NCBI GenBank assembly: GCA_025617745.1
Contig: CM046862.1
Location: 54,241,597 to 54,305,596, forward strand
DNA: 64,000 nt
Reading direction: 5' to 3'
From: Heliocidaris erythrogramma
Lineage: Eukaryota; Echinodermata; Echinoidea; Camarodonta; Echinometridae
The notes below the pieces were generated by a model. That model searched no databases. It was not told where the DNA came from and was given only the letters and a program-made list of their open reading frames with translations. Below, piece after piece: positions 2,171-57,585 of the stretch. How positions within the stretch are numbered: position 1 is the first letter of the stretch; every line of letters begins with the position of its first letter. The position numbers and the translations under genes are program-made.

Positions 2171-2175
2171 ACGGC

Positions 2176-21655: not shown

Positions 21656-21692
21656 CAAATTGGACTTAACATCACATTGAACAAGATTGTGC

Positions 21693-22549: not shown

Positions 22550-22570
22550 ACTCTCTCTCTCTCTCTCTCA
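22550..22570 (+). repeat. (CT)n microsatellite
   Basis: Ten or so CT units. Confidence 0.85.
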
Positions 22571-22654
22571 AAGTCTCCAAAACAGGGCTTTTTGACGCTC
22601 AAATACTGCCCTCTCTTGTCAGTGGCGCAAATCCTGACAGAAAAAATACTCATC

Positions 22655-35931: not shown

Positions 35932-36160
35932 ATTGCAAGTAGAATCAGAGTCATTGGAAGTCACCGTCATGTCAAAAATGGCTGTTGCTATAGAAACAGT
36001 ATAATAAAAATTGAATATTCTGTAACTAATCAACACAAAACAAAGAACAAGTGTATGTATAGCCTAAAATGGTGTTTATCTGTCAGCTAAATCTGAGTCA
36101 TTTGAAGTCACCGTCATGTCAGAACATGGTTGTTGCTATAGAAACGTTATGGTGAATTAA
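35932..36160 (-). repeat. X-box-bearing repeat, dispersed copy
   Basis: Inverted relative to 46490-46735, sharing 'cagagtcattggaagtcac'-type and 'aaaatggtgtttatctgtc' blocks. It contains GTTGCTATAGAAAC at 35984-35997 and again at 36132-36145. A duplicated 'aagtcaccgtcatgtca' block shows two partial units. It is preceded by a C-run/G-run palindrome at 35905-35929. Confidence 0.7.
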
Positions 36161-36319
36161 TAAATATTGGTGAAAATCTTTTACTATTCAATGCACTTTA
36201 TTAAGTAAGGGTCTCCACAACCCGAAATGATGTTTTTTCCCCCCTGTACGTTAGCTAGGATCCTAAATATCATATCCTACCTGAATGCCACAGAGTTGGA
36301 TGTCGGGCGACCATTCGGG

Positions 36320-36725
36320 CTCTTACCATGGTAATAAGATAGGAAATAACATATATGTGTAATTCAACAACGTGAAAATATTTAGTAAACATTACATCTA
36401 TTTCAAGCAGCTCTTTTAAGTGCACTTTTTTGGTGTGCTTCAAGGTCACAGTCAGGTACACGATTATAATTCTTATTATCCGTTTGGTCTCAAACTGACG
36501 CCGATATGGCGGGTGTGAGCACCAGCCCCATTACTATGGAAACGCACCATCAAAATATTGGAAATTGTTTGAAAATGACATATATATTCTGTTTTAACAA
36601 TAAAAAACACAAAATATTGGTCTTGATATACATATCATAAACTGCCTGAGTTATTACAGTCATAATCCGAATCACTTAAGGCCATAGGAATGTCAAAACA
36701 GGGTTGTTGCCATGGTAGTATTATT
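36320..36725 (-). repeat. X-box-bearing repeat, degraded copy
   Basis: Holds TTACCATGGTAA at 36323-36334, 'actatggaaac' near 36533 and GTTGCCATGGTAG at 36706-36718. It also has the 'ccgaatcactta' block equivalent to 'caaatgactcagatt' of the 55-57 kb array. More diverged than the other copies. Confidence 0.5.
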
Positions 36726-36729
36726 ATGA

Positions 36730-37860
36730 AAACTAAGAAATTGAAAAAAAAAAAGGTTACAGATTTTTTGTTATTACACAGCAGCAATTATGTTGCAAAT
36801 ACATTTTTTGACTGTTCACCGTGTTCGGATAGCTCCGGGCAAGATGTGGGTGTCTATGTGGGGGACCGTTGCGGTAACAACAGCTGATCCTAACAGGTTA
36901 GCTGTACTTGAGTAATTATACTTCCACCTCTATGCCTTGGTGTTGGGATGGAGGTAATGGAGGCTTAATAGATTGATTAACCTCAGTCACAGAACCTAAT
37001 GTATTCATAAGATGATAAACTTGTCGGTCTGTAGCTAAACCTGTCTACTGGAAAAAAAAACTCTGAGGAGATTGGAATAGAATTTAGCATTTTTCCCCTA
37101 ATCCTACCCATAAGAAATCTGCATGTTCATTAAGGATTATTAGCATGACCAAGGTGGTATAGGATTTGGACTTCATCAGATACAGGGCCAAAGAATTGAG
37201 CTTTTGGGTGCCTCATCATATATCAAGTCCAGGACTAAAGTGCTGATACCTGCCTGAAGTTTTTATATTTGCTAGAAAGTATTCAAAAGAGTCACTGAGA
37301 AGGCCTGTGGTGCAATGCAGCTCAGCATTCTCATGGCTTGCATGATTGGGGTACCTGTATATTAGCTATGACTTGATGTGTTGGGGACCATAAGACCTAT
37401 ACGTTTTCATATTGGTTGCCCTTACAGGTAAGATGCAGTTCTCTTGGCTTTAGAGGAGATATAGCCAATAGTTTGTGAGATGATTCATCTAATACTATCT
37501 TGCCTTAAGCACGGTTGGCTAAAGGATGGGGGTATATTTTTAGCAGAGTTTAGTGGCTAAGTCCATAATGTTGTGAAATTAGTTAACACCAGTGGGTTTG
37601 TCTATCTATCTTTTACTGCTTGAACTGAGTATTCTCTTATTAAAACGTGGTTGACTTTCTTACAAGTCTGATATGGTGAGGCACTCTTATCTGGCATGAA
37701 TCACAGGCTGAGAAGGTCATGATGAGGAGATTATCCAACCCTCCCCCGGTTTGGTTTGGCAGAATAAAGTCAGAACTCAGGATGGAAATATAGGTGTCAT
37801 CTATACCTCCACCACTATGTTAGAAGAGAATACATTTTTTGCAATGCTTGAGTAATGTCT
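36730..37860. other. Unassigned stretch
   Basis: Moderately GC-balanced sequence with no clear open frame, terminal repeat or RNA gene recognised. Confidence 0.4.
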
Positions 37861-37861
37861 C

Positions 37862-38957
37862 TACACAGTAAATAATATTTTAAACAACTCTTCAAAATTT
37901 TTAAACAACGCTGTTTAAACAACAACTGTTGTTTAAAACTTTATACAACCCAAGTTGTTTAAACTTTAAACAGCCTGTAGTTTAAAATTTTTAACAATTT
38001 TTTTAAGCAACAGCTTTTAAACAACTAGGTTGTTAAAAATTAAGTTGTTTAAAAAACCCCAGTTGTTTAAAACTTTTTTTCACAACTATTGCTTTAAAAA
38101 ATTGTTGTTTAAAAAAGTTGTTTAAAGTAAGTTGTTTAAAACTTTTTACACATTGTTTAAAAAATGCATTCAAATTTGATGTTCAAATTAATTATTTAAA
38201 ACACTATACGGATATGATGTGTTTAAACGTACACGGTTGTTTAAGGCTGTTGTACACAAAGTAAGTTCCAAATGCCAGAGGTGATTTATACGTTCAGAGG
38301 TAAGCATTTAGACTGAATATATTGTAATCTGATCGAGTTATACTCAATACATATTTGTGCTGCCTTGAAATCTACATTATGTCTAGATCTAGACCACATC
38401 CATAAAATAAATTATGATGTAGACCTGGAACTTTGCAGCGTAGGGCACTTTAAATTAGTTGCACACATACAGTATAGGACCGGACCCACACGAGCATTAT
38501 GTGCAACATAAACTGCGCTGCGCTGCGTTAGAAGGGCGACTTGCATAGTTGCAGCTAGGTCAAAATCATAATTAATTCTGTGACTGTGGCTTAGATCTAG
38601 ACATCATACATCATATATGGCAGCACAAATATGTCTTGAGTATAAAATCGATCAGATTATATTTAGTCTAAATGCTTACCTCTACATGTATCAATTATCT
38701 CTGGCATTTGCATCTTCTGCAACATTGCAACCACAAAGGCATCCGCTATGATGAAGCCGGCTGTGTTTGGCGGAGAAGGAAACCCGTCTAGCGCGAATTT
38801 TCAACCTTTTTAAACAACGTTGTTTAAAAGATTATCATTGATGTCTTAAACAGCGGTTGTTTAAAATGCAGGGTCCGTCATTTAAACAATATTGCTTAAC
38901 ATTTAAACAACACAAATTTAAAAACAGCGAAATTTTAAACAGCGTTTTTGCTGTGTA
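37862..38957. mobile_element. Palindromic transposon with GTTTAAA subterminal clusters
   Basis: About 1.1 kb. The left end has 'tacacagtaaata' and the right end 'tgctgtgtatg', forming short inverted termini. 37880-38250 and 38795-38945 are packed with TTGTTTAAA / TTTAAACAA motifs, at least 25 in all, some as the palindrome GTTTAAAC. The middle is also inverted: 38255-38400 against 38590-38740 ('tctagatctaga', 'ggtaagcatttagactga'). No transposase. The LINE tail at 38958 starts directly at its right edge. Confidence 0.7.
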
Positions 38958-41868
38958 TGGTTAGGATTTGATTTGATTTGATTTGAATTTATTCAGACAT
39001 TATAAAAACATGTCTCGGGAAAACAAGAAAGTTTTGACCAACCCATACAAGTTTGTTTCCCGGATATAAATAACAAGTAGATTCAATATCATAAACATAC
39101 TGCACAAAGTATTATTTAAAAGATGTAAACGATAGACAACAATGATGATTGCAAGTAAAATCACTGTAGTATTGCAGAGTACACAATTACTTAGTTGAGG
39201 TATAGCATCTGTGAAATTAACTATGTGGGTTGAGATGCTTATTTAACGCTCTTTTAAACATGCTAAGAGTTTTAATATTGACTACATACTTCGGAAGTTT
39301 GTTCCAATCATTCATGGTTTTAGGATAAAATGAGTTCATATAATAATCTGTTCTTGCGAAGGGTACATGCATCTTTAAGTTATGATTGGTTTTTCCGATT
39401 CTGTTCGCAGGTGTGCACCTGTCTTTATGTCCTATATCTATTAAATCATTAACAAGCTTATAATAAAACAACAGTGGGAGGTACTTTCGTCTATTCTCTA
39501 ATGTATTCATACTTAACTTTTGTAATAAAGTATAATAACTAGTGCTCCAGTCTTTGCACATCATTCTTAAATAGCATTTTTGAATTCGTTCAACCAGTTG
39601 TTTTTTTGAATTTCTATATGGATCCCATGCTATACAACAATAATCCAAACGTGAGCGTACTAAAGATTCATAAAGATTTGTTAAAACAGATTTTGGACAG
39701 TCAACAGAGTTCCTCCGTATAATACCAACAAGTCTATTGCACTTCACATGTAATTCAGAACAATGATCATTCCAATTTAAAGTATTGTTCATCATAAGAC
39801 CCAAATATTTCTCTGACATTGTATTTTATAGCTCCTGACCAGCAATAGTACATGCGTAAGCTATATCATGAAGCTTCCGAGACATCGTCATAATCTTGCA
39901 TTTAGATAAATTAAAATCGAGCATCCATGTCTTAGACCACTGATTTAAAACTTCCAGATCATTTTGTAAAATTTTACAATCATCTAAAGTAGAAATACGA
40001 CGATATAAAATACAATCATCAGCATATAATCTAATGGTAGAGGCGATGTTATTAGATATATCATTAATAAAACATAGAAATAACGCCGGACCCAAAATTG
40101 TACCTTGAGCAACACCAGATTTAACATCAATCCATGAAGAAAATTCACCATTAATAAAAACTCTTTGCGATCTTTTTTGTAAAATTTAAATTATTTGATT
40201 TCACACCGTATACTTGTAGTTTTGTTCTTAAAAGTTCATGGGACACACTGTCGAATGCCCTGGCAAAATCAAGAAAAGCAATATGAACACTTGAACCCGT
40301 TTCCAAAATATATGACCAATCATCGATAACCTCTACTAATTGAGTTTCGCATGATCTCTTTTCACGAAAACCATGTTGGTTATCACATAAAATGTTATTA
40401 TTGTTAAAATGTTGAAATAGGCGTTTACAGACTATTTTTTCTAAAATCTTACTTGTAACAGACGTTAGCGATATTGGCCGGTAATTACTAGCGTCTTCTT
40501 TTTTTATATATAGGGCAAACATTTGCTCTGAGCCAGTCTTCTGGTAAAATGCCGGATGACAAAGACATGTTAAAAAGTTTACAAAGAGAAGGCGTTAATT
40601 GGTCTGCACCTTCCTTTAACAAACGTGGAGATATTTCATCAGGTCCCTGTGCTTTTGAAACGTCTATACTTTTCAACAATTTTAAAACCTCAGTCTCTGT
40701 ACATTGAATGTCCTTCATAATAGGTGCCTACTGCTATATTCAGGTATTGAGAGGCTTACGTGGTCTTTAAAAGCTTGATTAAATTGTAAATTGAAAGCAT
40801 CAGCCTTTTGTTGATCTTCTGTTATAAGCGTACCATTGACCTTTAAGCATTCAACCGTACTATGATCACATTTTCTAGACTTGATAAAACTCCAAAACAA
40901 TTTCGGGTTATGTTTTAAGCTTTTACACAAATCATTCTTTAAAAAAGACACATAGTTAGATTTAATTTTCTTCTTTACTTCTCTCCTTAATTGTCGATAC
41001 ATCTCCCAGTGAGATTCTGTACGTGACTTTTTAGCTATGTTAAACATTCTATTTCGTTTTTTAATCATTTTTTACATCCTTATTTATCCATTGAACATTA
41101 GATCCTTTTGTCACATTGCCATGTGGGATATTTGCATCGCAAATCTTCATCACAACATGTTTCCACGATTGCCAGTGGTGTTCTACATCATATGCATTGT
41201 TTTCATCTAGTAATGTAGCATCTTTTAAATCATTATGAAACTGTTCTAAATTGCCTTTGGAATAAAAGTATATTTTTCTCTTCTTAAATTCGTTTTTAAT
41301 TATGTAACAAACCAATGTAAATCTTATTGCCTCATGAAAAGTTGAAAATATCAAATCTAATATATTGCTTGTCGATTCAGTAATCCTAGTTGGTTGACAT
41401 ACATGTTGATAAAGAAAGTTATTATCAATTATCGAAATAAAAGAGTTTGTAAGAGTTATCCGATGTTACATGGTATCCATCGGCCCATCGTAAATTCGGT
41501 AAGTTAAAATCACCTGTTAAAACAACATTGTGCAACCTTTTGCCATTATTGGATATTAGGGACATAGATTTATTTAACTCATATAAAATATCTAACTTAC
41601 TACTTGGAGGCCTGTAAAACACGCCTAAAAATAGAGATTTATAGTTTTTACATAGCAATTCACACCAAATTATTTCACATTCGGATTCAAGGTCTGGTCT
41701 GTGGAGTACAGTTAAATCATTACGATAAGCTATAAGAACACCACCTCCATGTTTATTCCTGTCCCTCCTTATTACTTTGAAATCTTCAAGAAATATCTCT
41801 GTAGATAAAATTTCATGACATAAGTGTGTTTCAGTAATGAAAAATATGTGTGGTTTTTCACATTGTAC
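38958..41868 (-). mobile_element. Nearly complete LINE, 5'-truncated
   Basis: A minus-strand non-LTR retrotransposon of about 2.9 kb. It ends in repeated 'tcaaa' units (38960-38983 on the plus strand reads 'gatttgatttg'). Endonuclease, linker, reverse transcriptase and C-terminal region are in the expected order. The 5' end is cut inside the endonuclease, next to a small inverted-repeat segment at 41869-42027. Short-repeat 3' tails fit CR1/L2/Jockey-group elements. Confidence 0.85.
39217..41868 (-). pseudogene. LINE endonuclease-reverse transcriptase, inactivated
   Basis: Endonuclease part (41868 to about 41330): FFITETHL (catalytic Glu), HGGGVLIAYRNDL, LGVFYRPPSS, VVLTGDFNLP and, after a frameshift near 41450, QPTRITES and ILDLIFST. 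The terminal SDH motif appears lost in a deletion. Linker 40715-41330. Reverse transcriptase: GPDEISPRLLK, NYRPISLTSVTSKILEK (about 40440-40490), FLDFARAFDSVSHE (about 40245-40290), GVAQGTILGP (about 40095-40125) and the catalytic YADD (near 40010-40025). C-terminal region 39217-39819. A single in-frame TAA near 39828 interrupts the last part. Frameshifts occur near 40165, 40510, 40715 and 41065. The polymerase motifs themselves are intact, so inactivation may be fairly recent. Confidence 0.9.
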
Positions 41869-42027
41869 AATAATATAATATTGACTGGCTTGAGGGGGAT
41901 ATCAGAATATATTGTCTGCAACAGACACGTTTCTTTGCCTGTCTTCGACTCGGGGCAATATGGTTCTTTTAAGGGCAATATTTTCGATATCCACCGAAAG
42001 TAGAGCCAGTCAATATTATTATTATTA
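41869..42027. repeat. Small inverted-repeat segment
   Basis: 'aatattgactggct' near 41877-41890 is inverted at 42004-42016. The enclosed 'acacgtttctttgcctgtc' (41926-41944) recurs almost unchanged at 42074-42092. It abuts the truncated LINE end. Confidence 0.5.
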
Positions 42028-42029
42028 CC

Positions 42030-43030
42030 TAGACTCAATGATCATCGATATGCCTATTTTGTAGCAATTACAAACACGTCTCTTTGCCTGTCAGTCCTTC
42101 TGATTTCAGGTTATTCATACAGATATGTAATCTGGGCCAAGCAATTGTGACGTAAATTGTTTTCGCGCGTATCCATTGTTTAAACCTTTCCACTTTAACG
42201 CGTACACAATACTGCGCGTATGCACTTTGATTAAAAGCGCGCTGACAAGAAAGGGTGGAATATATGGCAAAAAAGTTGCCCTCTTTTTTAGTACATTGGT
42301 CTATGGGGAAAACCCGGAAGAGGGCAATATGGCAAATATTGCCCGCTCCGGTGACGGATTGGGAGTTGCGTGTAAAATACGGCTTTTTATTTTGCAGCTA
42401 AAAATGCCCTGTATAGGTAATAATAGTTCTTATTTCATCAATCTTATTTACAACACTTCTAGCATTTAAATATATGCATTTCAGTTTATGACCAAACAGT
42501 GACCAAACAGAGTGCATTGACGACATTGGAGCTGGATTCCGTGTCTACAGCTTTGTGCGCGGTGGTTGGGTTCTCCGCAGTATTCACACCCTGTCGCATA
42601 CAGTCAGTCCGCAGCCCGTGCGTTAATGAGCCAAAATGCCGATTCCTCCGAAGATTTCCTCTCCACTGGATATCGAGTCTCGCGAAACGAGATAGCGTGA
42701 GATTTGGCGAGATATTTGCAAGGGGTCAAGAAAGTATCTCTCAAACGAAAATAATGCAGAAATCGTTCGGCTATGGTAAAGGAACTTCTCCGTGACATTT
42801 CGCTCTTTATTTTGGTATATAACATGACTATATTCGATCGGATTTGGATATCTTTTACCTCGTCCAAAAATGATGAAATTTAGGACTTTTTGGGGAGCAA
42901 TTTTAGCCTCTATTTGCTTCCCCCTAACTCCTGACTGGTATAAAGTTTTAAAATCGAAGTGATGTTGGTGATCGTTGAGTTGGATTATTGGCGCTAACAA
43001 TGAATTGACAATTATTTTGCAGCAAAGTGT
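42030..43030. other. Unassigned stretch
   Basis: Fairly open on both strands, but the frames (42499-42795 plus, 42623-43051 minus) overlap each other and show no motif. Confidence 0.4.
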
Positions 43031-43034
43031 ATTT

Positions 43035-43692
43035 GTGACCCGCCGCCTCAAAACCTACAATAAGTCGCGCGGACCACAACGTAGCAAACAGCCCAAAATA
43101 GTAAATTTGCTTGGATCAGTCGATTTTCTTTTTTGATAGAAATAGGTAGTTTCATTATCATTCTATCATGTCTCAAGTTTGTGAGTCATAATTCGACTTA
43201 GAAATATGTTTTTGGGGCATTTTAAAGTGACTCCTTTTTTTCACCTGTGGAGCTAATGGATGTTTGGAGAGCTTTTGTAATACTTTCATTCAATGCCAAA
43301 TTACTACTTTACCTCTAAAGGTATTAAATTGATTTTTAGAGTGAGTAATGAATAGGTCCTCGTGGAGCAGCTTGCCAAAATTCAGCCTAATCTGATAATC
43401 CCTTCATACCGCTTGCTATGGCTATTTGAATACCCAGTTTTACTTGGGCGCACACAGAGAGCGAAGATTTAGCACTCTTTTGTTCCGAACTTAAATGGCC
43501 ATTTTCTCTGAATAGGAGTTATTGATTGCTGGTTACATACTGATTCTAAAAGTGATATTTAAAGGTGTTATCATTGAGTAAACTAAGCAAGTGATATACC
43601 ATTGGAAAGCTGAGAATCTCTACTTTCAGAAAATGTATAAAACAAAAAAAAAATTTTGGCGACTTATTGTAGGTTTTGAGGCGTCGGGTCAC
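43035..43692. mobile_element. MITE related to the 21.2 kb element
   Basis: Termini GTGACCCGCCGCCTC and GAGGCGTCGGGTCAC continue inverted through 'ctacaataagtcg'. They are flanked by ATTT on both sides (43031-43034, 43693-43696). The GTGACCC start and AATAAGTCG block are shared with 21203-23498. 658 bp, no coding. Confidence 0.82.
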
Positions 43693-43974
43693 ATTTGTCG
43701 AAGAAAATATGATTTTCTTTCAAACGTTTTCCAAACAAAATACCCCGTGAAAGCCACTGAGGGGTGAACGTCCGGTACGCTACGCCGGGTGCAACGGGGC
43801 CGGGAATGTTCCAAGCTGCTGCTGTAGTTAGTTACTCCAGTCCCGTCGAACATTCACTGTTGCAATAGCGTAAAAGGTACACCAAAATCAATGTAACTGT
43901 AAGGAGGATATAATTCATCAACAGTGATTTTAGGACTATTTTAGTTTTCTCTGTGCAAACGTTGGGTGTCCAAG

Positions 43975-45970
43975 ATGAAAATGAAGCAATTTCGGACTTT
44001 TTTCATTCAATTTGATATAAGAGTCATTCAAATTAGCGAAAAAATCTGCACCGTAAAATTCATCATTCAACTTGGTATTTCGGTCATTCAAATTCGCACT
44101 TAGATCAAACAATTTAACACTTTTCTCATTCAAAATAAAAAGTCGGTTGGGAGCACTGAAATTCGCCACCATGTCGGAAAGCGTCTCTTCCAGCATTCAA
44201 ATTCGCACGTGGGCATTCGAATTCGTAATAAGCCCATTCAATTTAGCATGTTTAAGGTATTTGGACTTTTAATTAATTTACTTTGAAATAAATTGTTTTG
44301 TAATGCGTGGTTAGGCTTCCTTTTCATTACTCAGTTCCATTCCATAGGCCTTATAGCTTGTATATTCAAGTAATACAAGTCTACATCACTCCAAATTACG
44401 CTTCCATTTGAGACACACTCGCAATTGATTGCTCTCCGCTGTCTATCTCTATCATGGAACCACGGGTTAGATATAGACGCATATGGAACGAAGATAGAGA
44501 GAGGCTTATAGATGCATTTGAAGGGGAGCACACAGACTATCTTGAACTTGCAGACAACCCTTGGCATTAAAAAGAGCACCGCAAGATCCATAGTGGCCAT
44601 AAGTTGCGCCAACCACGTTAAGCTGGACGACGATATGCGAACGCGACTGCAACACATAGTTGACGCTAACCCCCTCGCCACCCTTCAACAAATGAAGAGG
44701 GACTTGGCGGCATCAATGCCCCAGAAGCCAGCTGTCTCGGTTTCCTCGATTTCAAGGGCACTTGACGGCATGCTGATTTCCTTGAAACTGGCAAAAGACT
44801 TGCCAGACGGAAGAAATGCCCCCAAACCCTGGAATCACGGGTACAATACGCCCAGTGGTTCATGGCAGAGGGATTAGTTGGCCACTGTGTGTTCATTGAC
44901 GAATGCGGTTACAACATTTGGACTAGAAGATCTTTTGGGAGGGCACCTCGAGGAATCCCAGTTCGCCGAATAGTCAATCGTCAACGCGGCAAGAACTGTA
45001 ACATTACTTTCGCGGTTTCGGCAGGGATTGGCCTCGTTCACCACACAATTTCGAATGAGACGGTGACCAGAGCCTCTTTCGAAGACTTTTTGGCTGCAAC
45101 CGCTATCGAATGTGCCGACCTCTTTCCAGCAGATGAGCCAATTTTCTTGGTCTTTGACAACGCGAGACCGCATATTCGTGCCCAGCTACCAGTTGACGCC
45201 GACCCTCGCATCAGTCTAAAGCGCTTACCTCCCTACTCCCCCTTTCTGAATTTCACAGAAATGGCCCATGCTGCCTTCAAGGCGGCGGCCGTCAAGCGCG
45301 ACCTTGCACGTGCTGAGTGGCAGCAGAGAATGGGTGACAGGGCAGCTACAGAAGAAGAGGGGATGACGATGCGAGAATGGAGAACCCATCTTGTGCAGCA
45401 AGTGGCAAGACGCAACATCGACGCCATCACCCCACACAAGTGCATGCGCTGGTATCGTCACACCCAAACGTATATTCCGAGATGCCTGGATCGCGTGGAA
45501 ATAGACGGCTGAATGACGTGACATTAACTTTCAAAATCATGGACTAAAACTCATTACCCGAACCCTCCCCAATGAAAAACACACACACAAAAAAACCCCA
45601 TGCAATTTGAAACCAATATATCAAAATTAGTAAAGAATAACAACCAAATAAAATGTGTTCGACGTAAATTACGAATTCGAATGCTCAATGTGCGAAAAAG
45701 AATGCTCTGAAATGAATTTGAATGCTGGAATAACGGTATTGCGCAATCGCATCACCTCCCGTTCTAAATTGAATGACCGTTTTACGAACTTGATGCATTT
45801 TTTGCGAATTCGAATGAAATTAGTCTAAATTGGATTGATAAAAGTACTAATACGAATGCATGAAATATTAATTTGAATGCTTAAATGCTTGTACACGGCC
45901 AAATTCTTGCATTGAATGCACGTTGTATGAATTTGACTGATGAACTTACGAAATTGACCGCAAAAACCTG
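43975..45970 (+). mobile_element. Tc1/mariner-like transposon with motif-packed ends
   Basis: A decayed transposase (44454-45512) lies between two regions of CATTCAAATTCGC-type motifs: about 12 at 43990-44250 pointing right and a similar number of complements (GAATTCGAATG) at 45665-45960. The right terminus reads 'gaaattgaccgc' then 'aaaaacctg' before TA. The left block aligns with 57600-57640 ('cattcaaattcgcgaaa'), but its outermost 15-20 bases are not recognisable. Element length of about 2 kb is normal for the superfamily. Confidence 0.75.
44454..45512 (+). pseudogene. Tc1/mariner (IS630 superfamily) transposase, two frameshifts
   Basis: Three frames join to one transposase. Frame 1 (44454-44561) starts MEPRVRYRRIWNEDRERL. 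Frame 2 (about 44560-44785) gives a helix-turn-helix with LGIKKSTARSIVAI. Frame 3 (about 44790-45512) gives the catalytic core. The first shift is at a CCC run near 44558. The second is near 44785. The core has FIDECGYNIWT (first Asp, about 44893), FLVFDNARPH (second Asp, about 45155) and LPPYSPFLNFTE (third acid, Glu, about 45262). I count 33 residues between the second Asp and the Glu, close to the usual 34. The core frame is open to a normal stop after 217 codons with all three acids retained. Confidence 0.87.
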
Positions 45971-46239
45971 TATTAACAATGAATGATATCTTCCCCTTCC
46001 TCATGAATGACCTATAATATTAGCGCTAACACCAGGGAGGTGGAAGAGCTCCCTGTTCACACAAAATTTATCATCAATGCAGGGTACACACTAGGCCTAT
46101 TGTTTACATGTACAATCCTTATGTTACATCAAATTCAGCCCACTTCTTGTGCTTATAAATGTGTAAAAGTCATAAATGTGGCTGTACCAAGGAGTAATGT
46201 GATTACTCCTTGGCTGTACTAGATCTTGCCTACGAAATA

Positions 46240-46450
46240 CATGGTGGAAGCACTGTGGTATATTGGTGAAGGCCTTTCACTCTCATACGAGAGCTCATGG
46301 ATTCGATCTTTGATCGGTTCTTATCCCTGGGCAAGGTGTTTTGTTTTCCTTGACCCAGATGTATGAAATGTGTACAAACAAGGCAATGATAGTTGCAGGG
46401 CAGTAATATTACTGATGTGGTTATCCTGGGTAAGTAAAATCAATTTGTTA
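46240..46450 (+). mobile_element. tRNA-derived SINE
   Basis: A tRNA-like head (46250-46320) has TGTGGTATATTGGTGAA (A-box-like) and GGATTCGATC (B-box-like) and is followed by 'ctgggcaaggtgttt' and 'gacccagatgtatgaa'. That body order is typical of marine invertebrate SINEs as I recall them. The tail is not clear. Confidence 0.6.
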
Positions 46451-46489
46451 TTATCTATTATTCTAAAACTCTGATGTTTCTTGGTGCCT

Positions 46490-46735
46490 TACCATGGTAT
46501 CTGCCTTGACAGTCTCACCCACAACCAACTTTGTGGCTACTGGGAAGCTTTCGATTATGATAGCTGAGGGTCCTAGCTGACAGATAAACACCATTTTAGG
46601 CTGTACATACACTTTATCTTTGTTTTCTGTTGATTAGTTACAGAAATATTCAATTTTTATCATACTGTTTCTATAGCAACAGCAATGTTTTGACTTGACG
46701 GTGACTTCAAATGACTCTGATTCTACTTGCAAACG
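46490..46735 (+). repeat. X-box-bearing repeat, single unit
   Basis: Has ACCATGGTAT at 46491-46500 and GTTTCTATAGCAAC at 46667-46680, about 175 bp apart. It also has 'atgatagctgagggtcctagct' split by the unit and 'cttcaaatgactc'. Same order as units of the 54.9-57.3 kb array. Confidence 0.75.
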
Positions 46736-47640
46736 GGCACCCCAAAATACATATAGGTGTCCCAACGGGTCGGAATCAGGCGGAAGTCGCAATCGGTCCT
46801 TGTCTAGAAACAAGGGTTTTAATGAAAATGTCATTTTGTACCATTTTTTTTTTTTTTTTACATATTCCAAAGCTTTGATTATTCCTCTACCACGTCCCGA
46901 AATTTAAAGCCAAAATACCATGACTAAGTACCTCAAAATAATTTTTTAAATCACCTCTTCCAAATTGCATCGACGGTTTCATCTTCGCAAAAACGACAGG
47001 TCCTCAGCAGCGAGCTTTGCGCACGTCTCTTTTGTTACTAGGGCCCTGAGTGACGTGACATAATGGCAGTTCGCCGACTTCGCACCCTGTGATTGGTCGG
47101 CGCTCTAATTGCCTAATGCATATTTATTTTTCTTAAAAGCTCGTGTTGTTGCCAAACGTTATCTCGGCTCGCCGTCTTTGAGCGCTAATCTTTTGGTCTA
47201 ATTTCATATAGTCTAATGACCATTTGGTCTAATTACTATTTATTCTTCTGGCCATTTAGTAGCAAGTTGAGAAAGGAAATTTTAAAACAAATGAAAATTC
47301 AAAGAGGTCATCTACGTAAATGTGCATTAAAAGAGTTATTCACCTTGCTGTTGCTTATATCAAGATCAGTATCCCTACATTTTATATATTAATTATTTAA
47401 TTTATTAAAATCAATTATTTAGTATTATTTTTTAGTAATCAAAACATTCATAGGTCCCCTCTTCCTTTCATGACTTAAGTAGAAGAACGTGATTTTGTAT
47501 TGCACTTCGAATTATGTTTGTTGGGTTGATAATCTGTTAATATTCATGTTTCTTATTTGATATATGATCGGTGGCGTAGCTAGGATTTTTTACAAGAGGG
47601 GCAAATTCTGCTTGAAGGGAGATCCGTATTTATTTCTTCT
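46736..47640. other. Unassigned stretch with a TTAGACCAA remnant
   Basis: The 47193-47245 interval carries three inverted copies of the 32.4 kb array motif. Nothing else was recognised. Confidence 0.4.
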
Positions 47641-47657
47641 CGCCAGCCCTCCGAAAC

Positions 47658-47792
47658 TGTTTCCCCAGGTCTCGCTAAGTTCCTACTCAAAGGTGTCACG
47701 CTGTTGTCATATCAAGAACTAAATATTCTGTCATTAAGCTTCTCTGATTCTTTTGAGCTATGCAAGCTGCTATTTTCAGGGGCGGCGTTACA

Positions 47793-47829
<37 letters not shown>

Positions 47830-47985
47830 GGGCGGTTGCCCGCTATGATATTTCAAGTGACGTAAAAGAGAGATAGACAGCTCGAGAGAGAATAAAAACG
47901 AAAAAGATAAGGAGAAGAAGAAAGAAAAAGAAAGAAAAGTATGCAACTACTACTATTATTATTATTATCATTATTATTATTATTA
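47658..47985 (+). repeat. Dispersed repeat R, copy 2, interrupted by a G run
   Basis: The left part matches 31500-31610 and the right part (47870-47985) matches 31605-31710. Between them lies 'caggggcggcgttac' and a G run of about 36 (47791-47826), apparently a separate insertion. Confidence 0.7.
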
Positions 47986-47986
47986 T

Positions 47987-48140
47987 TACCCACGCCGATG
48001 AAATCGGCAGGGTTATGTAAAGGGCTCCGTATGTTTGTTACCCACGCCGATGAAATCGGCAGGGTTATGTAAAGGGCTCCGTATGTTTGTTTGTTTGTTT
48101 TTTTTTTTTGTTTGTTTGTTTGTTTGTTTGTTTGTTTGTG
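47987..48140 (+). repeat. 52-bp tandem duplication plus (TTTG)n
   Basis: 'acccacgccgatgaaatcgg' and the following 32 bases are repeated exactly once, starting near 47988 and 48040. A T run and (TTTG)n to 48139 follow. Perfect identity suggests a recent duplication or an assembly artefact. Confidence 0.88.
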
Positions 48141-49059
48141 TACAAGATAACAAGAGAACGGGTGAACGGATTTGCACCAAATTTTCAGGGAATGTTCAGA
48201 AAGTGACAGGAAAGAATCGATTAGATTTTGGTGATGATTGGTTGACCCCTGCAAATTCTGTGTGACCTTGAACTTTTGACCCTGTAGTAAAGTATAGGAA
48301 CTTCAGTTCAGAGAGTGACAGGATAGAAACTAGAATGTTTGATGACCCCAAACTTCGCCTGACGATGCAGAAATATTTTGGTCAATCAAAACACTCATTA
48401 CTTCGTCTCACCAAAAATCTATTTCAGGTTTATGAATTTTAGAAGACTTTTAGACCCATTATTTGCTATTTCACTTCAAATCCGCACGAGCCTGCAATGA
48501 ATATTCAAAGCCAACGTATCCCAGCAACAAGGGATTTTTTGCGCTTGAACTGTACTCTCGTTGCGAAATCGAAAGCGGCTAGGTATACGGTATACGTATA
48601 GCCTAGCACGTCTAATTTCTCCTATTTCTTATCTTCTGTGCATTTCTGTTTACTTTCCCCGGTTCTTTCCACTTTGTTGTGGAAGTTTTTGTGATTTATT
48701 TTATCCTGGTGGACGTGTAGTACGTGATTTTAATTGTTTTCGGTGAAAATCTGGTGCGTTTGTTCGACGTGAGTGAGTCTATCGCACTCGCGAGTGTTCG
48801 CGTGTGTTGATCTGAGTGAGTGGCTGAGTAGCTAGCTGTAGTGTACTATACACAGCACTGTCGCGAAGTGCCTGGGCCGGGCGGCTGACTGTAGTACTGA
48901 GTGAGTAAGCTCTGTGCCTCGCATGCACGTCATTTTCAAGTCGAGATCCAACTTCTTTTGTCGTCATATTTATTTTATCCAAGCCCGATGAAAAAAAAAA
49001 ACAACAACCCGAATTGCAATGTAAAGATAGAACATGAATACATTTACTAACACTGACGT
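48141..49059. other. Unassigned stretch, locally CpG-rich
   Basis: 48560-48930 is less AT-rich than its surroundings and contains 'cgcactcgcgagtgttcgcg' near 48782. No convincing exon or promoter was found. Confidence 0.4.
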
Positions 49060-49067
49060 GACTGAAC

Positions 49068-49237
49068 CAAGGCCGTACGCAGCGGGGAGGGGGGCCCCCT
49101 GCACCCCCCCCCAGAAATTTCAAAATCATACTTTTTTTTAATCGGGTTTTAGACTTCAAGTTATGGGTTCCTTTGAAAGCGATCATCTTGCCCCCCCCCC
49201 CCCCCCCCAGGAAAAAAAAAAATTGCGTACGGCCTTG
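49068..49237. mobile_element. Complete hAT-like MITE
   Basis: 170 bp with 14-bp inverted termini CAAGGCCGTACGCA / TGCGTACGGCCTTG and a perfect 8-bp duplication GACTGAAC (49060-49067, 49238-49245). The interior is largely C runs around 'caagatgatcgctt' sequence. A truncated inverted copy is at 13884-14007. Confidence 0.9.
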
Positions 49238-49539
49238 GACTGAACACTGAATACAAATTGCTAACATTTTTTTTCTCACCACGCCACGCTCTCTGACATG
49301 TCTAATCAATTACTTTTAGGGGAGGGATGTTTCAATAATAAAATATCTTTTTCAGAAGAATTTTTTCAAGGGTGGGGACACACAAAGCTATGACCTGGAT
49401 ATGGCAAAATTTATTGGGGGGGGGGGAGATGTGCCTCTTGTTATCCCCTTTGAATGGCTACTGCTTACAAAAATAATCGCAACAAAACAAAACCTATTGG
49501 GTTAAGGCGTGGGTCTGCCGCCTTTGACGGCCTTTCTAG

Positions 49540-49548
49540 TTATTATTA

Positions 49549-49580
<32 letters not shown>

Positions 49581-50215
49581 TGTTCATCTAAATCGTAAAT
49601 CAACTCGCTCGTTGGCTGGGGGCACAATGCCCCCCCCCCCCCCCCCACCTTTCCAAGTACCCAAAATTGTCTCCTGCTTCCCACAAAAATGCGCTCTTTA
49701 TACTTCTTCACTGCCTTCTTTTTCTTCTTTTAAGGCAGTGGCGTATCTAGGTATATTATGACGCCCTGGGCAAACAGTAAATTTGCGCCACCTAGTCGAG
49801 TCAAATTATGTTATGCGAGGAAGCGAAGGGACCGAGCAGTAATATATTTTCATTATTTTTTTTACCCTCCCACATGGTTCCTTTATTCATCATCAACATA
49901 ACAATTTTTACAAAAGATCGTGTATATATATATATATATATATATGTTGTTATTATTTGTACTGTAAATACTTAAAACAATAAAGTATACCATAATATAA
50001 CTAAATATGCAGCCGCACAGCGTTTGACAAAATATAGGTTGTGTACAAGAATATATTACGTACAAAACAGGCAAAGAGAACATAAACCTTCAGAATCATT
50101 GGGAGAAATTAAACCATTTTTTATCTTCTTTAAGATTTATCTTTGATATATACTTTTCCATATATCATAATATGTTTTGATAGCTGTCTAAACTTTTTCA
50201 AACCTTGGTAATTGA
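49540..50215 (+). repeat. Dispersed repeat R, copy 3
   Basis: Matches 31675-32345 along its length, including (ATT)n, the C run near 49629-49646, 'aaggcagtggcgtat', a TA run and 'atatgcagccgcacagcg'. Smaller indels distinguish the two. Confidence 0.8.
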
Positions 50216-50339
50216 CTTTTACATTTAGCTGAAAATATTTGATTGAGATACAGTTAAAAGCGTTATTATGATTTCGATTCAATCCAAACAATTTATTTTG
50301 GTGTGTGAGTTTATGTTATATATTGGTTTTAAGGGGCGA

Positions 50340-52230
50340 TTTTACCGTTTTTCCAAGGGGGGGGGGCTGTTGACCCAACCAGGGGCGGATCCAGGATTGG
50401 CAAAATTCGCTCAGTGGGGGGGGGGGGTAATGGGGGTCCAGTTTACCTCCATAATTCCCTCCATAATTCCCTGACAAGCCCAAAAAAAGTCCACAAGCCG
50501 GCGATGTGTGCGAGCCGCGTAGCGGCGAGCCGATTTTTTTTCTCGCTATTTTGAACCCCCGTAAGTGATGATTTCCTGGCATCTACGAACGCAATGGAGA
50601 CCATAAAAAGCAGTCCTGTGATATAGGAACATACTGTGTGGGTCTGGACATATCATGATGGGGTTTATCTATGGACATTAAATTTTTACTTTGCAGCCGA
50701 AGGGGGGGGGGTGTACTTTTTTTTACTTTTTTTGTACTTTTTCTGTTTCCCTTGGGTGGCCTTAATAGACAGGTTTGACTGTATTTGTTTTTATATTTCT
50801 TTCTTTCTTTACGTCTTTATTTAAAATTTTCTTTCTTCCTTTATTTCTTTCTTTTCTGCAAGGGCGAACATTTTAGTCTGGAAATAACATTACTGAGATG
50901 GAGGCGGCTTCAGTCCAGCTTTTTAAAAACTTTTGGTGTTACACATACGCCGAGCCGCCTCCGGAGGCAGCCTCAGTCCACTTTCAGGTTCTTTAATTTT
51001 CTCTCTGGAGAATGTAAAAAATTAAAATAATCCTGCGAGGCAATACGTCACAATAACCCCCTCCCCCGCCCCAAGCCCAATCGTGGCGGTGATCTATTAA
51101 CGCGTTTCAAGTTTTCAAATACAGTTTAAAGGATCATTATGGTCTATAGACAGGCCAGTAACTAGGGGAGGGGGGCTGAATCCCCCGTTTTCCAGCAAAA
51201 AAGGGGGGATAATTCAGACCTACCCCACTACCCCAGTTGATGAGTAGTGATCCGCTTGCCAAAGGAAAAAAAAGGAAGCCAGGGGGGTGGAAGGGAAATT
51301 CAAAGTGATATATATATTCAATATAATTCTTTCTGTCCATTTGTTATTCCGGCATATAACGGAGGGGGGGGGGGGTTGAAAATGGGCTGAAAGTTAAAAT
51401 TTCCTCCCCTCAGCAGATATCAACTTGAACACTGTAGGAAAATTAGAAGAAAAATTGTAAAGGGACACCAAATACCATGCACAGAATAAATAGTGATTGT
51501 TTAGTTTGGTATAATCATACCAACTGACTTTTAAAGGAACAAGGAGGTCACATGTAGGGGAGAAAGTAAGGAGATGAGAAAGTAACAGAATTTTCACTCC
51601 ATTGAGTTTGTTCCTGCAACTTCATACTATCGCACTGAAATCAGATGGCATTTTGAGCAAATCTTGTAGGCTTCTGTTATTTGTTCACAAAATCACACTT
51701 CTCACACGGAAAATAGTGCAAAGGTCCACTTTTTCGAATTTTGACCCCTGCCCCCCCCCCCCCCCCCCTCAAAAAAGTCTTATAGTAATACGGGCCTGAT
51801 AGAGACTGTATGCTGGCATCAACACCTATTAACTGAATGGTTAAATCGTCAATAACATAAACCTAGAATTTTACATCCACATGCAACACATAGCCACAAT
51901 TATTTATTTTTTTAATCATTTCTTATGTGTGAAAAGTGCATGAACAATTGCAGGGCTAGGGAAATAACGTTATCGCATGAATATTCAACGTTAACAATTT
52001 TATCCCGTCTGAGCATTTTAATGTTGAAACGACCGAACATACACAAGTACACACAATAATAATTCGATTATATTTTACATGACGAACACCTTTTATTCAA
52101 TCTGAAAATACTCGGACGAGAATTAGTTTTTACCTTTTTATGTAGAAAAATAATTTGAAATCTGTTTTAACGGATTATGCTGCACATAATTCACATTCCC
52201 TTTAATTTTTTGTTAACTAGACCTTCAGCA
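50340..52230. repeat. Cluster of poly-G-bearing repeat remnants
   Basis: G or C runs occur at about 50358-50366, 50417-50427, 50701-50710, 51363-51374 and 51750-51768. Several follow phrases such as 'caggggcggatccagg'. No coding frame was recognised. The low-complexity frames near 50636-50824 are composition artefacts. Confidence 0.5.
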
Positions 52231-52238
52231 AGTGTACA

Positions 52239-52501
52239 GGGCCGGCGGAACGTTTTTCAGATTGGGGGGGGGGGGGGGGAATTTGGCGACAATATTGGTT
52301 AATATAATATTATTTTTAACAAGCCTAAAAAAGGTAACCACGGCAACCACCATAGCAACCATTTATAATACATTCAGTTAGCAAAACTTACGCCCCCTGC
52401 AAATATTGGGGCGGCCAATTTTTTTTTTACGCAGTTTCCTATGTCCGATCCAAAAATATTGGGGGGGGGGGGTCCTGGCCCCACCGGTTCCGCCGGCCCT
52501 G
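52239..52501. mobile_element. GC-terminus MITE
   Basis: Inverted ends GGGCCGGCGGAAC and GTTCCGCCGGCCC enclose two G runs and an AT-rich middle. GTGTACA occurs on each side (52232-52238, 52502-52508). A 7-8 bp duplication suggests hAT affinity. Confidence 0.75.
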
Positions 52502-52509
52502 GTGTACAT

Positions 52510-53480
52510 TATAACTTCAAGGTCATGAGGTTGCGTTTCGGTTTTGATTGATAAAGGTAAACATTTGTAAATCTGTAATCATTTCAGGGCATAACCAGAA
52601 AAAAAAATTCCAATATGTTAACAATTATTAAGATTAATTTGGGGTTAGTTGTCATTGTCACTGATTGCTCGCTCCATATTGTCTTGTGATTTCAAGCTTA
52701 TGATGTCTCTGCGGAGATGTACTAGTGAAGTTTGTCATGCCTATGTTTCTGGATATCACTTTACAAATACAATTGGGCTGGTGAGGATCAAGCCGATGAA
52801 TAAGCCTGGATCATCAAGGATAAGCAGGAAATACGAAATAAATAAACATCAAAGCGTGCATGATCTCACAAACAATTAGAACGGCGTTTATGGGTTGAAA
52901 ATAAAATTAACTTAAGTCGGGGGGGGGGGGGGGTGGGGGTCGTCGGAATTCTTGGGGAGCTAGATAATCTTGGTTGACACCAAAACTTTTGAAAAGCCCT
53001 GGGGAAACTTATTGTAGCTGATATTTTTAGGGCTCAGTCAGTCTGGTGTACAATCGAAAGACTTATGCATGAGGCAGTGTTGGTTACAACAAAGTGAGGT
53101 AGTGACTTTACCATGCCAGTATACAGAGCATTACATAAGGTCAATTGGTCATAAAACTCATAACGCTTGTTGCTGGGTAAATCGGCCTATGGTGTAAAAT
53201 TCCCCATGAAAACTGATGATTATCTGAAACGCGGGCAAGGGAGAATTTGATTATTCAAAATCGGAAATCAGGGGCGCCGGATTTTTCAGAGAACAAAACT
53301 GTTTGCTATTCTGTATCTTTTGGGGGAATTGAGGGACTGCAATCTTCATTATTTTTAAACAATTTATAATCCGAACCTAGATGGTCGTTGTCTAAGGTTT
53401 CTTGAAGGAACGATAGAGATAACGACAGAAAGGTCGGACTAAGAGAGAGGGAGAGAGAGAGAGAGAGCGAAAGGGATGTT
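52510..53480. other. Unassigned stretch with G run and (GA)n
   Basis: A G run lies at 52919-52933 and a (GA)n run at about 53447-53466. Nothing else was recognised. Confidence 0.4.
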
Positions 53481-53504
53481 GTCTTTATAATACTACTAAT
53501 AATA

Positions 53505-53855
53505 ACAATAATGATGATAATAATATTAATGATAATTAAAAAACTTTTTAGGTCCAAATTTAAACGGGCATTTCCAAGTGCACTTTTTTCTGTGTAGAAA
53601 TTAAGACTGGCTACCAAAATCAAAAAGTCCTGCTAATATAAAAATCGTTCTTACTTAACCCCAAGTAATTCAAAATGATGATAATGACAACAACAACAAT
53701 ATAGTAATGATAATAATAAAAAAATCTTTTAGGCCCTAATTTAAACGGGCATTTCCAAGCGCACTGTTTTCTGTGTAGAAATTATGACTGGCTACCAAAA
53801 TAAAAAGGCCTGCTAATCGTTCTAACTTAACCTCAAGTATTAATTCAAAATAACC
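53505..53855 (+). repeat. Two-copy tandem repeat of about 190 bp
   Basis: 53540-53675 and 53730-53850 share 'taaacgggcatttccaag', 'ctgtgtagaaatta' and 'gactggctaccaaaat'. Each is preceded by an AT-rich ATA/ATG block. Confidence 0.8.
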
Positions 53856-54970
53856 TTACAAAGTGACGATGCAATTGGTAATACCTAGCATGTGATGAAA
53901 GAAACATGGCAGTAAAATTATTGAATCTTGCTAGTGGTTTGATGAAAGAAAAGTTATTGTGATAAAAAAAATAACTTAGAATTTCGAGACTGTCTTGGTA
54001 TTCAGTGCTCTCTTTTTTCTCCTTTTTCATAATCTATTTAAATTGTCAAAGATTCCAAATAAAATTGCCCCAAGAAATTAATAAATAAATGAATGAATTG
54101 ATAAATTGATTAATGATATAAATGAATCATTGCATGGGGTCTTGTCCTTGTTAGCATAATTTATATCTGGCAAGAGATTCCATGTATTTTGCTTTTTGAA
54201 AATATGAGGCAATGAGAAAAAAAGGTGATCTAAAATCCGGGATTGGGCGATTGTGTTTGTGGAGGTCTCAATGGAGCGGGGCTGGGCCACGTGAAAAGAA
54301 TTTCAATAATAAAATGCTTCAGGTTCAGTGTTATCTTCGTAAAAGCTAAAACGGCAGAGAAAGGGCCATCAATACCGCCGTTCAATACCCCTTACCTCCC
54401 CGTGATCCGCCTATAGCACAAAAGCATAGCTTTCAGTATTCTGATAAGCATGCCTTCACAAACGGAGACCGAATTCTAAGCGAAATTCGCGTCATGCGGG
54501 TGACAATTCACGCCCACGCTGGCTGGTGTACGCTCATTGTTACCTAACGTATTTTACATACAATTTGCATAATGACGGGTTTTTGCACGCGGCACGCGAC
54601 CTTGGCACGTGGTCGAGTTCAAGGGAGACGTTGCTAGGGAAGTGCTCAGCGGACCATAACGAGCTACGGGCAGCTTGTTTTCGTTTCGCACCGAAACTTT
54701 GAGTACCGTTTTCTCCGTTTTTTTAATTCCTTGGCGGAGCGTTTTCATGTTTTAAATCACTTTTTACAATGACTTCTGTTTTAGTAATATATTCATGTTA
54801 TACATCATTTTAAAGGTTATTAACCAGAAAATCTAGAACACATGAAAACTGACATTTGCAATGTTGCGACTTCCGCCTGAAACCGTCGCGTTTGGTCACA
54901 ATTAGTTAGATGGTTACAATTTGTTTTTGTGATATTGAATTACAGATATATAGTACATGTATATTCGAAA
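53856..54970. other. Unassigned stretch
   Basis: The 54554-54748 minus frame overlaps a more GC-rich patch (54480-54720) but has no recognised motif. No element termini were identified. Confidence 0.4.
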
Positions 54971-55219
54971 TTTCAATTCCTTGTTGTGTTACCATGGTAA
55001 CAACCCTAGAGGTCACGCCCACTACCAACTTTATGTAAAATAGGAAGAATATGAGAGCTGAAGGTCCTAGCTAACATAAAAACATGATTTAAGATTATGC
55101 AGTTGTTTTCTATTTTGTATTGATAAATCATAGATATTTTCCACAAATATCTGCATTTTGTGGGACCGTTTCCATAGCAACGGCCCTTTTTTTTACACGC
55201 CCACGACTTCAAATGACTC

Positions 55220-56153
55220 AGATTGTGGAGTTCCTCAAGGTTCCATTCTTGGTCCTCTGTTGTTTTTAATTTTTATCAATGACTTACCATATTCAACCCA
55301 ACATTTGCGTTATATATTATTTGCAGATGATACTAGTGTTTTTTGCAAAGGTCCCGATCCTAAGAATTTGTTTTATGTTGTAAATACTCAATTAAATAAA
55401 ATAAGTAACTGGATGAAAGCGAACAAGTTGATTTTAAACATAAATAAAACTAATTATATTATGTTTGGAACTAAGAGTAATATTCCTTCTAATCTAGATT
55501 TGTATTATAGAAATGAAAAAATAAGTCGTGTATCTAATGTTAAATTTCTAGGTGTATTCGTAGATGAAAAACTATCTTGGAATTACCATGTTAACTATAT
55601 ATGTAACACCTTAGCTAAAAACATAGGGGTTTTGTATAGACTGCACTTCTTGCCACAAAATATTCTAAAAATGTTGTATCATTCACTTGTTTCTTCTCAT
55701 ATAAATTATTGTAATATTGTTTGGGGTTTTACTTCCAAAAAAAATATGGAACGTATTCACAAATTACAAAAACGTGGAATTCGTATTATAACACACTCCC
55801 CTTACCTTTCACCCAGTTTACCTCTGTTTAAGAAAATGCAAATCCTTCCTATCCATGAATTATTATCTCTAGATACTGCAATTTTTATGTTCAAGTTTTC
55901 TAACAATTTTCTTCCTGAAGCTCTTAACGATTATTTTACTTTGAATTGTTCCATTCATAATTATAATACTCGGAATGCCCAAAACATCCATCTTCCTCTT
56001 AATCGCACATCAGTTACACAAAATTCAATCTTTTATAATGGTCCAATTCTGTGGAATAGTCTACCAACAATATTTAAGAATAGTAAGACAGTAAGTCAAT
56101 TCAAAAGACTGTATAAAAGACATATCATTTCAGTATTGAATCTAAATGTTTAA
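55220..56153 (+). pseudogene. LINE reverse transcriptase C-terminal half, otherwise open
   Basis: The frame opens upstream in array sequence, so the first 20 or so codons of the open frame are not LINE. From 55224 it reads DCGVPQGSILGPLLFLIF, then the catalytic FADD (near 55320-55331) and NKLILNINKTNYIMF. Next come VKFLGVFVDEKLSWNYH and a C-terminal domain with LQKRGIRII and WNSLP, ending at a natural stop at 56153. No frameshift or internal stop occurs over about 310 codons, making this the youngest-looking retrotransposon here. It lacks the endonuclease and the N-terminal half of the polymerase, so it is a dead-on-arrival copy. Motif style fits the Jockey/CR1 group. Confidence 0.92.
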
Positions 56154-56377
56154 CGATAAGATGATTGCAATGTTTCCTGTTACATGTATATTATTATATT
56201 GTATGACTCTGTTAATTGTGATTTGTTAAATATGTATTTTTTCTTAAGGGATCATTTCTAACAAGCCTTCTTGAGCTTTTCATGATCCCGCCACAATTAT
56301 TTATCACAATGAATTGACAATGATTTTTGTAATGTGTTTTTTAAAAGTGGAAATAAATTTGAATTGAATTGAATTGA
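55225..56377 (+). mobile_element. 5'-truncated LINE inserted in the X-box array
   Basis: The insertion splits the first array unit. A 9-bp sequence AGATTGTGG lies at 55220-55228 and 56377-56385. The first copy overlaps codons of the reverse transcriptase (TGT GGA), pointing to short homology at the 5' junction. The 3' end is GAATT repeats, as expected for target-primed reverse transcription. Confidence 0.88.
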
Positions 56378-57585
56378 GATTGTGGTTGGAATCAGTGGGG
56401 CAGCTTGAAATACATATATTAGAGTCCTTACCATATATTTTATACTGCTAACTGACAAATATACGGTATTTTCTAAATTCCAGTATTTCGTTATGTTTTA
56501 CCATGGTAACGGCCCTAGCGGCCACGCCCACCACCACCTTGATGTCAGACAAGCAAATTATGATAGCTGAGGGTCATAACTAAATATAAAAACATTATGA
56601 AAGACGGTGCGGACACCCTTTTCTTTCTATTTTGTAATGGTTAGTTATAGATTTTTTAACAAATAACAGCTTTTCGTTGGAACGTTTACATAGCAACGGC
56701 CTTTTTTGACACGCCTGTGACTTTAAATGGGTCAGATTGTGATTCCAATCTATCAGGTACCTTGAAATACCCAAAATGGAATACTTACCATATATTTTAT
56801 AGCTATTGAATGACAAAGATACAGTATTTTCTAAGAATCCAGTATTTCTGATGTGTTACCATATTAACGGTCCTAGAGGCCACACCCACCACCAACTGTA
56901 CATCAAATAGACAGATTACGATAGCTGAGGGTCCTAGCTAATAGAAAACACATACTTTAGGCTGGTGCATACACCTCTTTAGCTATTTCATATTTATTAG
57001 TTTAGAAAGTGGTCAAAAATATCCGCTTTTTATGATACCGTTTCCATAGTAACGGCCATTTTTTGTACATGATCTTGACTTTAAATGCTCTGATTATGGT
57101 TGCAATCGATTGGGCACCTTAAAATACATACATTTGGATGCTTACCAAGTATTTTTAGATTCGAGAATTGGAATTATACGACTAAAATTCATATTTTTCT
57201 TAATCCGTTACCATGGTGACGGCCCTGGTTGCCACACCCACCACCAACTTTATGGCAAACAAGCAGATTCTGATAGCTGAGGGTCCCAGCTAACAGAAAA
57301 ACATCATTTAAAATTGTGCCTAAGGGGGGACCTTTTCGGTTACTGGCCCATGGACTATAATATTTTAGCCCCTGTTATTGCAAAATTACAAAACTGGCAA
57401 TAAGCCTAATTTCCCGTTATTTTCAGGCAGCCAAACAAAACCCGTTATATTTCACGCGTTTTGTTGATTTAGTTTCTGGTTTCATTATTCGATTTCGGCT
57501 TTTTGTTCATTCTTGCGGTACACGCTGATAAGTGCAAGCCGAAGAGCTTTAGTATGTCTCTCTTCAACTCCATTTTCCAGTAGTA

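Follow-up and report, generated by a model that had tools for sequence, protein, structure and literature searches.

The seven X-box palindromes in the window (the whole 64-kb stretch of DNA analysed) stand in an array that forms the right arm of a DNA transposon, a non-autonomous element of the foldback type about 6.2 kb long, and in the family to which the array belongs the X-boxes are under constraint. We consider it likely that these palindromes serve as protein-binding sites needed in cis for the spread of the element, with a host RFX protein as the likeliest binder. The initial annotation had read the array as a dispersed tandem repeat with RFX-type sites and overlooked the foldback-type transposon to which it belongs as an arm; the array is dispersed because of transposition, and its sites are spaced as they are because a dimer has been duplicated.

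A foldback-type transposon and its old copy in the window

The seven palindromes, all near the published Rfx X-box, lie between 54988 and 57220 in an array of A/B dimers of about 357 bp, for which TRF gives a period of 358 bp across 56427-57127. Each of the sites proposed initially is present, and the proposed spacings of 180, 187, 171, 185 and 167 bp are exact:

54988..55001, plus strand: A X-box, GTTACCATGGTAAC
55168..55181, plus strand: B X-box, GTTTCCATAGCAAC
56497..56510, plus strand: A X-box with one change
56684..56697, plus strand: B X-box with one change
56855..56868, plus strand: A X-box, changed
57040..57053, plus strand: B X-box, GTTTCCATAGTAAC
57207..57220, plus strand: A X-box with one change

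With up to three mismatches allowed, GTTACCATGGTAAC matches 13 times in the 64-kb window (shuffle mean 2.64) and GTTTCCATAGCAAC 23 times (shuffle mean 6.91). The array family is found elsewhere in the window at ~35927-36740, inverted, and at 46462-46756, and a search with the X-boxes masked recovers both stretches. Rfam and tRNA scans of the window gave no matches.

The dispersal claimed for the repeat is borne out in the window's own genome (1.064 Gb in 26 contigs), which contains 1,495 exact copies of GTTACCATGGTAACRGCC and none of the reversed control; among the places listed, minus-strand matches often precede plus-strand ones by a few kb. The copies fetched from such places are mostly 5.9-6.6 kb long and have two inverted arms of tandem A/B dimers. 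Long inverted arms made of tandem repeats are the structural hallmark of foldback elements, and the copies are dispersed, flanked by a target duplication and matched by an empty site. The element ends in TAGTCYATGGGCCA, with the outermost bases TAGTC...GACTA, and TAGTCYATGGGCCA occurs at 1,092 places, compared with 4 for the control. Two end types can be told apart, E1 (TAGTCTATGGGCCAACGTAGACC) and E2 (TAGTCCATGGGCCAGAAACCGAAAAGG), with exact matches at 269 places for the E1 21-mer and 215 for the E2 26-mer. Among 100 of the 269 E1 and 80 of the 215 E2 places, 64 of 65 inverted neighbouring end pairs no more than 30 kb apart joined one E1 to one E2 end, and 51 of these 64 were spaced 5.06-7.03 kb.

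With the element bounded as TAGTC...GACTA, an identical 3-bp target duplication flanks all 21 copies with both ends, in 12 different triplets; shuffled flank pairs showed such a duplication in 2.5 of 21 on average and in no more than 9. In 20 of the 21 copies no exact duplication exceeds 3 bp; the remaining one, which lies inside a TA run, has 5 bp. Copy L070 sits within a reverse-transcriptase repeat, its joined flanks match 40 places, and all six of the flank matches read show the empty site ATGC[TTA]TTGG; a consistent duplication did not emerge from reading frames over joined flanks. Identity to copy L066 is 95.6-97.8% for eight copies and 89.9% for one, so the element spread recently. One short, diverged copy (L074) was excluded from the consensus and the arm alignments, and copy e2 is without an E2 end.

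None of 10 copies contains an open reading frame of at least 150 amino acids inside the element. A domain scan of 10 reading frames from copies L075 and L070 returned only two matches, both below the cut-off and unrelated, and neither a transposase nor an autonomous copy was found among the fetched copies. Copies e1, e3, e4 and e6 were considered as autonomous partners and rejected, as their long reading frames look retroelement-like by eye and are probably nested; inside L075 and e5 the reading frames are short. Searches of prokaryote and viral collections returned no relative with two patterns. A further, shorter pattern matched once in each of 57 viral stretches, the best at E=0.007 over 20 bp against the array and the rest weaker.

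In the window, 35884-57357 is a single old copy of this element, extended to ~21.5 kb by nested insertions, namely two foreign blocks of ~8 kb and the 1.15-kb retroelement that interrupts the array:

35884..57357, no strand assigned: old foldback-type transposon copy with nested insertions, its pieces in order on the consensus at 90.5-93.3%
35884..35906, plus strand: decayed left end, type E1 (fuzzy E1 match; no TA before it)
35927..37863, plus strand: inner portion of the left arm, the outer one being deleted, and beginning of the middle, 92.2% to consensus 1323-3291
35984..36719, minus strand: five X-box sites in the left arm (35984, 36132, 36322, 36530, 36706)
37864..46234, no strand assigned: foreign insert interrupting the middle (gap in the consensus alignment), which carries pieces of retroelement and DDE_3 transposase (Pfam RVT_1, DDE_3)
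46235..46756, plus strand: end of the middle and first right-arm units, 90.5% to consensus 4452-4972
46488..46501, plus strand: decayed X-box, right arm
46667..46680, plus strand: B X-box, right arm
46757..54902, no strand assigned: foreign insert in the right arm (gap in the consensus alignment)
54903..55228, plus strand: right arm, first stretch of the array, 92.4% to consensus 4970-5291
55229..56376, plus strand: truncated non-LTR retroelement inserted into a B unit, with GATTGTGG flanking it on either side (RVT_1 E=2.1e-15; tail and duplication by eye)
56377..57355, plus strand: right arm, outer stretch of the array, 93.3% to consensus 5283-6267
57330..57357, minus strand: right end, type E2, reading TAGTCCATGGGCCAGTAACCGAAAAGG on the minus strand

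Just after the right end stands the triplet TAA, without a visible counterpart at the left end. Within the first foreign block, 44512-45512 contains overlapping reading frames, the second of which carries a DDE_3 transposase domain (E=9.4e-17). The block at 46757-54902 has apparent inverted ends of its own, with GGCGGAAGTCGCAA near both by eye.

Constraint on the X-boxes and the level at which it acts

The family consensus holds 15 perfect GTTNCCATRGNAAC sites, counted on either strand and all within the arms, which are stacked ~357-bp dimers, each with two 14-bp X-boxes spaced alternately ~170 and ~184 bp apart (170-175 and 184-186 bp in the arm alignments). In these alignments, trimmed by 60 columns on the outside and 40 on the inside, the X-boxes diverge by 0.29% in 22 E1 arms and by 0.34% in 21 E2 arms, compared with 2.5% and 2.1% in the other columns. 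The ratio of X-box to remaining divergence stays at 0.11-0.17 when CpG, TpG, CpA and near-gap columns are removed, and none of 5,000 window sets drawn at random for the E1 and E2 arms was as cold as the X-boxes. The cold stretch is sharply bounded at the 14-mer, the two halves of which diverge by 0.42% and 0.19%, and each other 7-bp bin from -70 to +83 by 1.2-4.2%.

As the A-box had served to find the first copies, and as picking L066-L077, e1, e2 and e6 by exact A-box matches biases them toward intact X-boxes, 10 copies found by their ends alone were counted apart; being chosen by exact ends, these copies are young. With CpG columns omitted and the arms trimmed as before, 5 of 2,015 X-box positions in them are off consensus, compared with 499 of 24,113 in other arm columns (Fisher p 2e-12). 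Changes shared with other copies number 1 in the X-boxes and 349 in the rest (Fisher p 2e-11), private changes 4 and 150 (Fisher p 0.007), and window permutation gave 0/4,000 for all changes and 5/4,000 for private changes.

A genome-wide check at the outermost E2-arm site, based on 21 exact anchor bases and the first 100 places of each 14-mer, found the X-box non-consensus in 6 of 100 (of 281 places), the 14-mer before it in 17 of 100 (of 289 places; p=0.012 vs the X-box) and the 14-mer after it, itself a cold stretch in the alignment, in 10 of 100 (of 244 places; p=0.22 vs the X-box). At this one site the contrast is weaker, which counts against constraint; a weaker contrast is also to be expected, because exact anchors pick the youngest copies, with few inherited changes. 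Beside the X-boxes, ~23-30 bp off, further cold stretches such as TGGTGGGTGTGGCC and TTAAAGTCATGGGC recur from site to site in the E1 and E2 arm alignments and are possibly a second protein site.

The X-boxes were initially said to be better conserved than the sequence between them. This is so when the units in the window are compared with each other (conservation of 0.824 for the A X-box vs 0.556 for the rest of the A unit, and of 0.837 vs 0.581 for B), further blocks of the A unit being conserved as well as its X-box. It does not hold when the window copy is set against the family consensus: with CpG columns omitted, 9 of 185 X-box positions and 170 of 3,430 others have changed (4.9% vs 5.0%), a comparison that draws on one dead copy and 9 changes. 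Equal divergence of the 14-mers and the rest of the unit, named at the outset as the result that should count against the sites, is thus found in the window copy; the family as a whole, with its strong constraint, shows the opposite. The conservation among the window units is inherited from the active element.

Since the X-boxes of the window copy have decayed at the background rate, selection has acted on the mobile element and not on the window locus. Most simply, copies that lacked good X-boxes would rarely have moved. Such selection on mobility explains the depletion of private changes only in part, as it requires many of these changes to be older than the insertion that carries them; some do predate insertion, given that 22 of several hundred copies were sampled. 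A 14-bp footprint that is present in young copies and absent from a dead one separates selection at the level of the element from selection at the level of the host.

Related repeats and the candidate binder

The palindrome recurs in other repeats of the genome. A second foldback subfamily (L075, L076, e3, e4, e5 and e7) has the outer ends TAGTAGACCAGCC, an inner boundary that resembles the E1 and E2 ends, and interiors of several kb without obvious coding; in e3, the sole copy read at both ends, AAA stands on both sides. Of 5 copies scanned, 4 have four X-box-like sites per side; e5 has three on one side and four on the other. Units of the two subfamilies are ~50% identical and their X-boxes 97.3%, a figure taken from three sites of e5 that were found by motif and so biased upward. 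The canonical GTTGCCATGGCAAC occurs at 654 places genome-wide, compared with 1 for the control, and six stretches sampled from its clusters (L118-L123) all fall in a single tandem repeat, the third, in which X-box-like sites follow each other at 187-201 or 393-398 bp, some of the middle ones decayed. The partner with which GTTGCCATGGCAAC alternates here is either GTTGTCATGACAAC, a symmetric change in both palindrome halves, ~395 bp away, or a decayed site ~190-201 bp away. The third repeat has no similarity to the first family, and to the second subfamily only over 32-38 bp around the X-box. The recurrence of a 165-201 bp spacing, despite the diverged sequence between the sites, is at least compatible with the nucleosomal phasing suggested initially.

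Three other features of the window may be recorded here. Within 21190-23511, two inverted arrays of a 15-16 bp unit, one at 21397-21656 and one at 22692-23024, share up to 86% identity, have similar outer parts and look like another foldback-type element. A tandem array of a 197-bp unit at 24613-25345 gave no X-box sites in scans, and 8982-9592 is a long near-palindrome that matches its reverse complement at 86% identity.

The proposed likeness to X-boxes is well founded, the 14-mers matching published Rfx motifs far above shuffles. Two such motifs, GTNRCCN0-3RGYAAC and GYTRYYN1-3RRHRAC, are given in PMC3414849; intact A sites match both, and intact B sites match the second on the opposite strand. 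GYTRYYN2RRHRAC occurs at 4 sites in 54903-57355, compared with a shuffle mean of 0.09, the remaining 3 sites having decayed away, and at 17 sites in the family consensus, compared with 0.24 in shuffles. The genome contains 12 matches to the RFX DNA-binding domain, four of them with internal stops. In the literature collection searched, no work linked the RFX X-box to satellite DNA, tandem repeats or repetitive elements, and the 14-mers as search words returned only papers off subject by their titles; RFX sites within pig SINEs are described (PMC10471783).

We propose that the palindromes are candidate protein-binding sites that would be required in cis for spread. Copies that lost their X-boxes would have left few daughters, which would keep the motif near invariant in young copies and let it decay in a dead one. 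The many evenly spaced sites on both arms may allow a dimerising protein to recognise, open or pair the ends. RFX is favoured as this protein because the motif with its free positions, GTTNCYATRGNAAC, agrees with the Rfx X-box and because the palindrome recurs in a diverged repeat; for the binder being a host RFX protein we see the case as evenly balanced. A fuller version, put forward tentatively, is that the foldback lineage, and probably other repeats, co-opted the host RFX X-box: RFX dimers in RFX-expressing germ cells might open or pair the arms and license transposition, and selection for mobility might keep X-boxes perfect and seed thousands of them across the genome.

The same element and the same selection could instead involve palindromes that bind the element's own transposase, their likeness to the RFX X-box being coincidental. 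This alternative, which competes with the binder step alone, is possible, if somewhat doubtful. It has a precedent in Galileo, a foldback-like element of the P superfamily in Drosophila, in which tandem repeats of the terminal inverted repeats (TIRs) carry binding sites for the THAP domain of the transposase (PMC3688188). In the available text of that paper, such binding sites are called untested for Foldback and Phantom elements, and transposition is said to be unable to amplify a non-functional TIR. The element described here appears to share this design with the X-box as its site, and differs in that the site is an Rfx-type palindrome and the target duplication is 3 bp. Conservation over a long range would also suit a coevolving transposase. 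Against it stand the fit of the whole 14-mer, free positions included, to Rfx motifs, and the abundance of the canonical palindrome genome-wide, the six stretches sampled lying in a third repeat that lacks further similarity around it; one transposase shared by all X-box repeats could still accommodate the latter.

A function for the host, in which the X-boxes would be retained at their loci to act as RFX enhancers or to titrate RFX as a sink, appears unlikely. The good motif match, the number of sites and some depletion of private changes in young copies would suit it; the X-boxes of the window copy have changed as fast as the rest, and depletion is much stronger for inherited changes than for private ones. 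The reservoir or sink suggested initially thus finds no support at the window locus, where the sites decayed at the background rate. It is quite improbable, too, that the 14-mers lack any function and are mutational cold spots or are homogenised by gene conversion. Further stretches of the arms are cold and the anchored contrast is weak, as this would have it, but the contrast survives the removal of CpG, TpG, CpA and near-gap columns, a cold spot should also appear in the dead window copy, where it is absent, and gene conversion would ignore a 14-bp boundary. An independent satellite with phased nucleosomes, for which the tandem dimers and the 167-187 bp between sites might speak, is refuted as to origin by the transposon right end, the target duplications and the alignment to the consensus of an inverted-arm element, and as a reading of the array is very improbable.

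Relation to known elements and regulatory sites

We classify the element no further than the foldback type, because its duplication and ends fit none of the superfamilies tested as a whole. Tc1/mariner elements duplicate a TA target; here the TA is part of the element, as the empty site shows, and the duplication is a triplet of 12 kinds. PIF/Harbinger elements target a TWA triplet, and TAA or TTA is the target in just 4 of 21 copies. CACTA (En/Spm) elements have a 3-bp target duplication, as found here, and end in CACTA...TAGTG, whereas this element ends in TAGTCYATGGGCCA. Near both of their ends, En/Spm elements also carry subterminal arrays of a short motif bound by TNPA, and thus resemble the present element in these arrays as well as in the duplication; they differ in their CACTA ends, as opposed to TAGTC...GACTA, and in the motif. 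The foldbacks FB of Drosophila and TU of sea urchin likewise have inverted arms of tandem sub-repeats; compared by description, their sub-repeats are much shorter and their target duplications longer than those of the present element.

Many foldbacks have been placed in the Mutator superfamily, which has target duplications of 8-10 bp (PMC4079207), compared with 3 bp here. Tetris of Drosophila virilis is similar in being a non-coding foldback with satellite-like tandem repeats of ~220 bp in its TIRs; its target duplications are 8-10 bp, and the available text of PMC4079207 makes no mention of an X-box. The X-box of ciliary promoters is a 14-bp imperfect palindrome with the same consensus, and according to PMC3414849 it is usually single and upstream of a gene, in contrast to the regularly spaced arrays within this transposon. 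If RFX does bind the arms, transposition would have a ciliary regulator among its host factors, and new regulatory wiring could draw on the X-boxes that the element supplies ready-made.
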